Source: Thermodesulfobacteriota bacterium (GTDB taxonomy: Bacteria > Desulfobacterota > Syntrophorhabdia > Syntrophorhabdales > JANXAF01). From it: a DNA stretch of 56,632 nucleotides. The stretch spans positions 1-56,632 of the forward strand of contig JANXAF010000011.1 in the NCBI GenBank assembly GCA_025062045.1, read 5' to 3'. A model generated the notes under the pieces. It was not told the origin of the DNA and made no database searches. It saw only the letters and a list, made by a program, of their open reading frames with translations. This document shows, one piece after another, positions 10,896 to 56,632 of the stretch (position 1 is its first letter; each line of letters opens with the position of its first letter). The position numbers were made by a program, and so were the translations under genes.

Positions 10896-11896
10896 GAAGA
10901 GGGACTAAAGTTTTTTTTGGCATCGTAGAGTCCTATGGCTTCCCTTACCTCATCTATAGTCTCTTTAGCGATCCTTCGCACATCCTTCGCACAACTATTT
11001 ACCACATCCAAAACGTACCCAATATCCCTTTTTAGTCTTTCCGCCCTTTCTTTTATAGGGGAGAGCTCTCTTTGAATCCTCTCGAAGAGAATCTTTTTAC
11101 AATCTATACAGCCTATTTGAGCTGTCCTGCATCCCTTTTCGACTTCCCCAAGGATGTCCTCTTCTGAAAAGGCAGTGTGTATTGTAAATACGTTACAAAG
11201 CTCTGGGTTGCCTTTGTCGTAACGCCTAACTCTACTCGTATCTGTTACTGCAACCCTCAGTTTTTCCCAAATCGAATCTTCATTCTCAAGAATTCCTATG
11301 TAATTGTTCTGGCTCTTTGACATCTTTGACTTGCCGTCGATTCCTAGAATTCTCGGAGCCCGAGAAAGGATGACTTTCGGTTCTGGAAAGATCGGCTTAA
11401 ACCTAGAGTTGAATCTTCTCGCTATCTCTCTCGAAAGTTCTATGTGCTGGATTTGGTCTTCTCCTACGGGCACGAGCTCCGCTTTATAGATGAGAATGTC
11501 TGCGGCTTGTAAGACTGGGTAATCCATAAGACCCATATTCACGTTCCTTTTATGCTGTCTCGACTTTTCCTTAAATTGGGTCATCCTCTCTAAATCGCCA
11601 ACAGGTGTGACGCAGTTGAATATCCATGTGAGTTCTGTATGCTCTGGAACCTGGGACTGGATAAAAAGCTTGCATTTATCTGGGGTTAGTCCACAGGCGA
11701 TGAGAGCTAGAGCCGTATCTATGGTTCTTTTTGCCAACTCTCCGACATTGTACTCAACCGTTATGGCATGGTAATCGACAACGCAGTAAATACAGTCATA
11801 ACTCCCCGTGAGTTTTACCCACTCCCTTATGGCGCCTACGTAATTTCCTATGTGGATTTCGCCTGTTGGCTGAATCCCGCTAAATATCCTTTTCAT
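10892..11896 (-). CDS. trpS: Tryptophanyl-tRNA synthetase
   Basis: This class Ic synthetase has 334 residues. The HIGH-type motif is in SGIQPTGEIHIGNYVGA, and KSKMSKSQNN is the KMSKS loop. PVGEDQIQHIELSREIARRFN is a hallmark of TrpRS. It is the first gene of the leftward trpS-murI-priA operon and diverges from tatA. A CIDC motif near residue 260 is unusual but lies in the variable C-terminal part. Confidence 0.97.
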   Translation of the reverse strand: MKRIFSGIQPTGEIHIGNYVGAIREWVKLTGSYDCIYCVVDYHAITVEYNVGELAKRTIDTALALIACGLTPDKCKLFIQSQVPEHTELTWIFNCVTPVGDLERMTQFKEKSRQHKRNVNMGLMDYPVLQAADILIYKAELVPVGEDQIQHIELSREIARRFNSRFKPIFPEPKVILSRAPRILGIDGKSKMSKSQNNYIGILENEDSIWEKLRVAVTDTSRVRRYDKGNPELCNVFTIHTAFSEEDILGEVEKGCRTAQIGCIDCKKILFERIQRELSPIKERAERLKRDIGYVLDVVNSCAKDVRRIAKETIDEVREAIGLYDAKKNFSPSS

Positions 11897-44590: not shown

Positions 44591-45320
44591 CGAAGAAAAA
44601 CCGATTATTTCTCCGAAAGAATTGGTCTGCTCATTTACCCGGAGGAATCCTTTTCATCTCCAACTAAAAAAAAGAGCCATAATAACCTTCGACAGGGGAA
44701 CGATAGAATTTTTAAAGAAAAAGACAAAGGCAAATCTAAACAGGTTTTGGTATCCTTACAGAAAGATCTATGAAGTGCCAGAAAGAGACACCGTTTTTAC
44801 TAGGTCTTACCCTTCGGGCACAAACATTTCTATACTCATAGAGGAACTGGCTCAATTCGGAGTCAAAGAGATAATAGTATTCGGTTTTTGTGGCTCAATC
44901 GTAGATGATTTCTCTATAGGAGATACAATTATGGCAAAATGTGCTTTAGGGGATGGAGATTTTACCTCCGAGTCGTTTTCAGAGAATGAGCATTTGATCT
45001 ATTCGAACTGGTTTATGGAGTGGCAAGAAAAAACTGAAAAAATGAGAATCATTCCAGCATGCGTTTGGAGTACGGACGAACTATATAGGGAAACTAAAAA
45101 GAAGATCAGACATTTTTTGATGAGGGGAGCCTACGCAGTCGATATGGAAACATACCGGTTCTACAAAACTTGCACTGAGCTTAAGTTGAAGGGAATAGCC
45201 TTTCTTTTGGTCTCTGACGAGTTAAAGGAGGATAGATGGATCTTTGGCTTTCATTCGGAGAACTTCAAAAAAGGAATTATCCGAATGTTAGACTTTCTAC
45301 TCCAAGAATGTGTTCTTTAG
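44550..45320 (+). CDS. Nucleoside phosphorylase-like protein (PNP/UDP family)
   Basis: The 256-residue protein carries the phosphorylase-fold features: a glycine-rich FGFCGSIVDDFSIGDTIM strand-loop and the ribose-binding DMETYRFYKTC. VSDELKED follows, with the Asp that protonates purines. It is divergent from characterised enzymes, and substrate specificity cannot be called; MTA, SAH, guanosine or uridine are all possible. It overlaps the HIT gene by 41 bases and meets bioB tail-to-tail. Confidence 0.8.
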   Translation: MKNSEPDFPKNSNDEEKPIISPKELVCSFTRRNPFHLQLKKRAIITFDRGTIEFLKKKTKANLNRFWYPYRKIYEVPERDTVFTRSYPSGTNISILIEELAQFGVKEIIVFGFCGSIVDDFSIGDTIMAKCALGDGDFTSESFSENEHLIYSNWFMEWQEKTEKMRIIPACVWSTDELYRETKKKIRHFLMRGAYAVDMETYRFYKTCTELKLKGIAFLLVSDELKEDRWIFGFHSENFKKGIIRMLDFLLQECVL

Positions 45321-46283
45321 TCTAAGGCCAAGGTCTTCGATGAGTTCCTTGTCCAGTGCAGGATTCCTACCACGGGTTGTGAGGTAATTACCTGTCATCA
45401 TTGCGTTTAGGCCAGAAGCTACCGCAAGGGGCAGAAGTTGCCTAAGCCTCAGTTCCTTCCCTGCACATAACCTTATGTCCTTATCCGGTAACATGAACCG
45501 AAATATTGCTATCGTCAGAATCACATCGAAAGCTGAAATTGGAGGGACATTTGCTAAAGGTGTGAAAGGTCGCGGATTGAGGATATTTATGGGTACGGAG
45601 TCGACCCCAAGTTCCCTAAGCTCTATGGCAAGCTTTATCCTATCTATAATAGTCTCACCCATTCCTATTATCCCTCCAGAACAGACAGAAAGCCCAGCAC
45701 TTTTTACATCCTTTATAGTTTTCAACTTATCATCGTACGTATGGGTCGAGCATATCTCCCTAAAGTATTCCCTTGAAGTTTCGAGATTGTGATGGTACCG
45801 AAAAAGGCCTGCCTTTTTTAATGCTTCTGCTCGCGTTTTGTCTATCATGCCCAAAGATGCACATGGTTTAATCCCAAGTTTACTGATCTCGGTTATTGAA
45901 CTTAGGATCGTCTCCCACTCATCGTCCCTCTCGATTGTTGGTCCACTTGTTACTATGCTGAAAAAGAATGCACCCTCCTTTAGGGCCTCTTTAGCTTTTT
46001 CAACAATCCTCTCTTTATCTATAAGGGGGTATACATCTATTGGTGAACTATAATGGACGGACTGAGCACAGAACTTGCAATCTTCAGGGCAAAGCCCTGA
46101 CTTTGCATTTACGATCATGCACAGCTCGAAAGAGTCTCCCTTAAAATGATGGGTTATCTCTCGAGCGTAAGCTATAAGCAGATAGGGATTCTTTTTGCCC
46201 TCTTCATATAGGACAAGCCCATCGTCTAAGGTTAAATCTTTTTTTTCGAGAGCCTTTTTCTTGAGAAGGAGAAGGGAATCCAT
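45297..46283 (-). CDS. bioB: Biotin synthase
   Basis: This radical SAM enzyme has 328 residues and inserts sulfur into dethiobiotin. The SAM-cluster motif is CPEDCKFCAQS. The [2Fe-2S] ligands include the cysteines of LGVCS-type segments, and the LNPRPFTPLA and RLCAGKELRLR stretches are typical. The gene follows an Rrf2-type regulator by 33 bases on the same strand, so its expression may respond to iron-sulfur status. No other bio genes are nearby. Confidence 0.95.
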   Translation of the reverse strand: MDSLLLLKKKALEKKDLTLDDGLVLYEEGKKNPYLLIAYAREITHHFKGDSFELCMIVNAKSGLCPEDCKFCAQSVHYSSPIDVYPLIDKERIVEKAKEALKEGAFFFSIVTSGPTIERDDEWETILSSITEISKLGIKPCASLGMIDKTRAEALKKAGLFRYHHNLETSREYFREICSTHTYDDKLKTIKDVKSAGLSVCSGGIIGMGETIIDRIKLAIELRELGVDSVPINILNPRPFTPLANVPPISAFDVILTIAIFRFMLPDKDIRLCAGKELRLRQLLPLAVASGLNAMMTGNYLTTRGRNPALDKELIEDLGLRLKNTFLE

Positions 46284-55843: not shown

Positions 55844-56194
55844 GGGGGCGACAGGTTTCGACAGGGAAGAAGGGGGCAGAGAGGCATGCCGGGTTTCTGC
55901 CTTCCCGTATTTAGGCAGAGATAAACATAACCGCAGACTCTTACGAGTATGCGATGGCCGCTTAATGCGGCCACATCACCTGGACTTTCCTCCTGCTTTA
56001 AGTCCAGAGTGGTGTAAACCAAGCAGGATAGCCAGTCCAGACGCCTATACGGACTGGCGAAAAAAGATAGGCTTTGGAAGGGAAAAACCTGTCAGTGGGT
56101 GTTTCCCTATCCGAGACTAAAACACTGACTAAGCATGTAGTCTCTTATGTCTCCTCTTTTCTGGACGCGGGTTCGATTCCCGCCGCCTCCACCA
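55844..56194 (+). ncRNA. ssrA: Transfer-messenger RNA (tmRNA)
   Basis: The acceptor stem pairs 55844-55850 (GGGGGCG) with CGCCTCC before an encoded ACCA (56191-56194). The T-arm reads GGGTTCGATTCCC. The resume codon GCA at 55933 is the 90th base of the RNA. The tag frame (55933-55962) encodes ADSYEYAMAA, followed by TAA at 55963-55965. The tag ends in the usual Ala-Ala protease signal, with Met where most have Leu or Val. Total length is 351 bases, within the normal range. The 3' end is a common integration site, and an integrase remnant lies just downstream. Confidence 0.96.
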
Positions 56195-56240
56195 TGTAAG
56201 TTATTGAAATTATTAGATTTCGTTTTCGAACCCCCCTAAA

Positions 56241-56262
56241 AAACTGTCCCCAAACTGTCCCC
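56241..56262 (+). repeat. Two tandem copies of an 11-base repeat downstream of ssrA
   Basis: AAACTGTCCCC occurs at 56241-56251 and again at 56252-56262 with no spacer. It lies between the tmRNA 3' end and the recombinase remnant. Short direct repeats there often serve as arm-type integrase sites; this is an inference. The surrounding 56195-56351 has no gene. Confidence 0.6.
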
Positions 56263-56351
56263 AGATAAAAAATCGGATTTACCATGTCCTTGTGGATAGA
56301 AAATTGTATAGAAATGTTTTGTAAGGAATTTTTTTTTAACGAGACTGCTTT

Positions 56352-56632
56352 TCAGTTTTTTTCTTTTTCCTTTTTGAACTGCAAAATTGAAACTTTATTT
56401 AAATCAGCTTTCAAACTGTTTATATCGACATGGGCGTATCTTTCGGTTGTTTTAATATTGGTCTGTCCCAGAAGTTTTGACACTTTGAAATAGGCACGTT
56501 CTGATTTATTAGATTACTTGCGAAGGGATGTCTCGTTGCGTCATATGACCTGAAGCTTTTGTCAAGATTGAACTTTTTCCTTATCGAATCCCATATCCTC
56601 CGAAGTGCATCTGAGTTTAAAATCTCTTCGTT
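56352..56632 (-). pseudogene. Frameshifted 3' end of a phage-type tyrosine recombinase (integrase)
   Basis: Read leftward from the window edge, one frame gives IRKKFNLDKSFRSY, then TRHPFASNLINQNVPISK. The motif then continues in another frame as SKLLGQTNIKTTERYAHVD and a tail ending at TGA (56354-56352). Joined, these are the C-terminal catalytic boxes of phage integrases: Arg-His box, LLGQ box and nucleophile Tyr in ERYAH. One base is missing near 56481-56483, where a Val codon (GTG) has become TG, so the product would end early. The 5' part lies beyond the window. The gene points away from the window edge toward ssrA, as expected for an element inserted at its 3' end. Confidence 0.82.

Follow-up and report, generated by a model that had tools for sequence, protein, structure and literature searches.

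The last 440 bases of the window raise the question of what adjoins the 3' end of its tmRNA gene. The window, a stretch of 56,632 bp, makes up all of contig C11; the assembly has 29 contigs, is 97% complete and represents a 1.76-Mb genome. It contains an intact ssrA gene on the plus strand (55844-56194; tag ADSYEYAMAA, ARAGORN), which Rfam RF00023 matches over its full length with 203 bits and whose 3' end is intact with CCA; the sequence stops at 56632, 438 bp past ssrA. Tyrosine integrases are well known to insert elements at the 3' ends of tRNA and tmRNA genes, with the target restored and a fragment of it displaced. The Islander catalogue of Hudson, Lau and Williams (PMC4383910) gives tmRNA as the most enriched target, and a first-pass annotation of this DNA regarded ssrA as a classic integrase target. 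We consider it highly probable that these bases form the integrase-proximal end of a mobile element that inserted at the end of ssrA and then decayed, and that a tandem repeat within them is a former docking site of the integrase. The ssrA edge is that of an ordinary kind of genomic island.

The gene convergent to ssrA encodes the C-terminus of a tyrosine integrase on the minus strand, split over two frames by one missing base. The catalytic domain (NEEILNSDALRRIWDSIRKKF...DATRHPFAS; frame 1, 56477-56632) ends at the contig end, and the C-terminal part with the stop codon (VSKLLGQTNIKTTERYAHVD...; frame 2, 56352-56483) terminates about 157 bp from the ssrA end, close to the 160 bases given in the first-pass annotation. 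The one-base deletion that it reported is seen near 56480, both as the change of frame and when the DNA is set side by side with a related copy on contig C13. The frame-1 part (56632-56423) matches PF00589 at 3.8e-4, as a fragment below the model cut-off, and the C13 sister integrase does so at 8.9e-20. The proposed comparison of the recombinase frames with other integrases gives matches for both parts, to a full-length Nitrospirae integrase (L014; 56617-56477, E=5.4e-7, 45%; 56483-56358, E=5.4e-6, 40%) and to the C13 sister (57% and 86% amino acid identity). Alignment with intact relatives shows that the Arg-His and the active-site Tyr are kept, and that LGH has become LGQ and RHS has become RHP, such that the integrase looks decayed even without the frameshift, which could be an assembly error; its catalytic residues are neither all intact nor in one frame. 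The window gene is a decayed copy of a tyrosine integrase and not a working member, and the two kinds of damage (frameshift and His to Gln) make it likely that the product is dead. Searches of viral contigs yielded no close relatives (one motif match and one distant integrase), a plasmid search gave no match, and phage records held only integrases of less than 60% identity, with nothing close.

The sequence between the two genes has a simple order. Reading rightwards from ssrA there are 2 nt, the 19-mer TAAGTTATTGAAATTATTA (56197-56215, plus strand; referred to here as the core-flanking motif), 25 bp, AAACTGTCCCCAAACTGTCCCCA, and then the minus-strand stop codon at 56352-56354. Two tandem 11-bp repeats (AAACTGTCCCC twice; 56241-56263, plus strand) are predicted to be arm-type sites for the integrase, on the P' arm. 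The sequence AAACTGTCCCC AAACTGTCCCC A forms a 12-base exact run at an offset of 11, which was reached by none of 500 shuffles of the flank, and the tandem 11-base repeat noted in the first reading is there. Only one other run of equal length occurs in the 56.6-kb window (ATCCTTCGCAC twice, at 10971-10993); it falls within a trpS-like coding region and probably arose by chance. Allowing up to 3 mismatches, the tandem is present three times in the 1.76-Mb genome, at the ssrA edge and at both ends of an island on C13, and the reversed pattern is absent. The core-flanking motif likewise has three copies in this genome, one at ssrA and two at the C13 island, and neither a further copy of it for the ssrA element nor a further tandem marking the other island end was found in the assembly. 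A search of the order with TAACTTATTGAAATYATTA (up to 2 mismatches) gave 68 matches in 46 genomes and two with a reversed control; many of the matches are directly at tRNA or tmRNA ends, and at several loci the motif begins 2 nt past the 3' end.

The C13 island was identified by a search of the genome with the end of the window, which finds a stretch of 67% DNA identity directly after a tRNA-Leu(GAG) gene. The island is bounded on both sides by a 25-bp att repeat with 0 mismatches, corresponding to the last 25 bp before the tRNA end, whose copies are 8.2 kb apart (L004:8638-8662 and 415-439). The CTGTCCCC tandem is present on both arms in the same orientation, 54 and 56 bp from the core, the 13-mer AACTTATTGAAAT is inverted about the core, and an inverted core-flanking copy lies across the core. 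The C13 integrase is cut short beside IS3-type transposase genes, and the interior codes for decayed GNAT- and ABC-ATPase-like ORFs, a pilin-like protein and two membrane proteins. The M48-peptidase neighbour of the island is absent from the other loci compared, and no empty tRNA-Leu site was identified that way.

By homology, the attachment core at ssrA is predicted to be GCGGGTTCGATTCCCGCCGCCTCCA (56167-56191, plus strand), extending from the T-arm to the 3' end of the gene: the equivalent 25 bp of tRNA-Leu are the exact att repeat of the sister island, and islands in two relatives, G065 and G059, contain a repeat of the ssrA 3' end. A displaced 3' tDNA fragment in direct orientation is present for all three of these islands. 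A search of the whole assembly, in which 438 bp past ssrA are visible before contig C11 stops, found no second ssrA 3' end (up to 3 mismatches), attR, second arm or integrase N-terminus belonging to the ssrA element. Copies of the C13 IS3-type transposase were ruled out as the cause of the contig break, as the gene is single-copy. Synteny with the relative G027, in which bioB and ruvCAB come after ssrA, gives no position for the junction either: contig C5 of the window genome has the ruv genes in its interior, a decayed bioB copy is near the start of contig C22, and the neighbour in G028 is different. This degenerate bioB-like gene is at about 476-1310 of L135 (G000 contig C22, 3.6 kb), and an intact bioB-like gene is present at 45297-46283 of the window; C22 might once have adjoined the island, as bioB follows ssrA in G027.

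The arrangement recurs at ssrA in other members of the order. We surveyed the ssrA 3' flank in 29 genomes, including that of the window, with two of the flanks being short. An exact tandem with a period of 11 (run of at least 8) starts 40-49 bp past ssrA in six flanks, and an integrase convergent to ssrA lies within 1.5 kb in four; all four are among the six with a tandem (hypergeometric P = 6e-4, a guide only, as the genomes are related and shared ancestry is uncorrected). The tandem sequences differ (CTGTCCCCAAA, CTGGTTCTATT, TTGGTTCTAAA and TCACTTCTATA), and the period and position are constant. In G065 and G059 a displaced ssrA 3' end is found 5-7 kb downstream, and the tandem of the near arm recurs there, so that each of these islands carries its own tandem, unlike that of the window, on both arms. 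We note that at ssrA the G065 locus (L106:1216-9450) contains a tandem of two integrase genes, each of which follows a separate copy of the ssrA 3' end; the first element has genes for phage replication-O and capsid proteins, and the second has a different 11-bp tandem.

These comparisons, with the C13 sister and both of its att ends and with the homologous ssrA islands of the order, strongly support the presence of a decayed element, carrying an integrase gene, at the 3' end of ssrA. The first-pass annotation had placed the edge of a decayed element here, and this part holds, whereas it had not recognised the tandem as part of the attachment site. In the scenario we favor, the integrase would have recombined the T-arm and 3' end of ssrA with a matching fragment carried on attP, the insertion restoring ssrA and leaving the integrase gene pointing toward it. 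The 19-bp motif beside the restored core is probably an extended core-type site, and the two direct repeats of 11 bp, spaced by about one turn of the helix, would be gripped by the N-terminal domain of the integrase as arm-type (P') sites. As judged from position and recurrence, the tandem is best explained as such sites, because the flanks with a convergent integrase all carry one, with different sequences and the same period and position. Pairs on both arms, placement beside the core, integrase-specific sequence and one-turn spacing also favor the arm-type reading; repeats on both arms of attP are seen in C13, G065 and G059, and one arm is visible in the window element. Phage P2 has direct-repeat pairs in both arms. 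We infer that the repeats bind the integrase, that the integrase no longer functions, and that past the contig end there is more of an island or of what is left of one; the first-pass annotation expected an island or prophage there, possibly with accessory systems.

A different role for the tandem would be as binding sites for a recombination directionality factor (Xis/RDF), or as an operator controlling the integrase gene. RDFs too bind within att arms next to the integrase gene and may oligomerise there (PMC11963761), but an RDF site would more often be one-sided, whereas in C13 the repeats of the two arms share one orientation and are almost equally far from the core, and both arms of the G059 and G065 islands have them; moreover, no RDF candidate was identified. 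We therefore think this role unlikely, and prefer that of arm-type sites. Less easily dismissed, though still not the reading we would choose, is that we may be seeing a scar and little more, the body of the island having been deleted and chromosomal DNA resuming soon past the contig end. The damaged integrase and the lack of attR in a 97%-complete assembly are consistent with this, and in the relative G040 (L111) the motif lies beside tRNA-Leu(GAG) in scar-like form, with neither an integrase nor clear island genes, so that some relatives seem to retain no more than a scar bearing the junction motif. However, the integrase homology extends almost to the contig end, and at least part of the element thus continues; an assembly break at this point is also what a strain-variable island would be expected to produce.

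That the recombinase is instead a host gene of the XerC/XerD type, with no relation to insertion at ssrA, is exceedingly improbable. PF00589 is common to such genes and to integrases, but apart from the C13 fragment the only other PF00589 genes in the genome are two full-length ones elsewhere (on C1 and C3), which from their sequences look like XerC and XerD. The window copy, by contrast, shares 57-86% amino acid identity with the C13 island integrase, and is convergent to ssrA behind an att-like junction.

The element resembles the Islander islands (PMC4383910) in that a tyrosine integrase gene adjoins the restored 3' end of ssrA or a tRNA gene, with intact tDNA at one end of the ssrA element and the (broken) integrase inside, and in that a displaced 3' fragment is present at the far end in C13, G065 and G059. 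It differs in that the window copy has no visible displaced fragment and a broken integrase, and the Islander filters would probably miss it. Integrases of this type use the N-terminal domain to contact short arm sites that flank the core on either side (PMC11963761), and as with lambda Int and IntS of ICEMlSymR7A (PMC11963761), there is an attP core with short, repeated, predicted arm sites, which integration divides between attL and attR. For IntS there are five such sites, of the consensus TGKTGGTATC (PMC11963761), whereas the predicted sites here are an 11-bp head-to-tail pair per arm with the sequence CTGTCCCCAAA. The ssrA islands of Dehalococcoides likewise occupy the 3' end of that gene, form tandem arrays and include members without an integrase, which are proposed to be cis-mobilizable (PMC3146451). 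Their integrase is the CcrB-type serine recombinase DsiB (PMC3146451), whereas the window recombinase is a PF00589 tyrosine integrase and not a large serine recombinase.

A further lead comes from G055 (JAKORG01), a deltaproteobacterial MAG of the same order. It has three CTGTCCCC junctions, at ssrA, tRNA-Leu(GAG) and tRNA-Ala(CGC) (L101 C101, L103 C86 and L104 C34), with arms of 86-88% identity to that at ssrA. Each is beside a different restriction-modification locus: one encodes a TdeIII-type endonuclease and a methyltransferase, another an R.PabI-type endonuclease accompanied by methyltransferases, and a third a methyltransferase set of the Eco57I/MmeI type together with DUF1016 and a ResIII/GIY-YIG protein. 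Of the three N6_N4_Mtase genes in G055, two are at these junctions. No integrase was detected near the ssrA and tRNA-Ala junctions with a profile built in this analysis, in the ORF list at tRNA-Leu, or in the genome with the C13 query at E<=1e-20, and the far end of the G055 islands was not found. Restriction-modification cargo does not appear to be a general rule, as inspection by eye of the ORF lists of other motif-bearing relatives (L111, L167, L169 and L171) revealed none, and we keep the association as a lead since it involves three loci in one genome. It is conceivable, if rather doubtful, that the att arms define widespread small, often integrase-less islands, at several tRNA and tmRNA sites per genome and favoring restriction-modification cargo, which are moved in trans by related integrases and of which the window ssrA element is a member. 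If the G055 islands are mobilised through shared arms, this would be defence cargo moving without its own integrase.

Although the single locus is ordinary, the junction signature, a core-flanking 19-mer together with an 11-bp-period tandem 40-49 bp past a tRNA or tmRNA 3' end, is the useful part. It marks island edges and old scars even where there is no integrase or displaced tRNA fragment and would aid in locating island ends where assemblies are fragmented, and with it the predicted arm sites of these integrases become directly testable. The exact pattern CTGTCCCCANACTGTCCCCA occurs in 29 stretches among 84,980 species genomes, where simple arithmetic predicts about two; 17 of the 29 are within 150 bp of a tRNA or tmRNA 3' end, and integrase ORFs adjoin several. 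In the distant genomes of L018, L020, L021, L024, L025, L030 and L036 the CTGTCCCC tandem beside a tRNA is opposite in orientation relative to it, so that different integrases may use a similar repeat differently. An Oxalobacteraceae MAG (L013, about 742-915) contains a long array of many copies of an 11-bp CTGTCCCCRAA unit, near which type I restriction-modification-like ORFs are apparent by eye.
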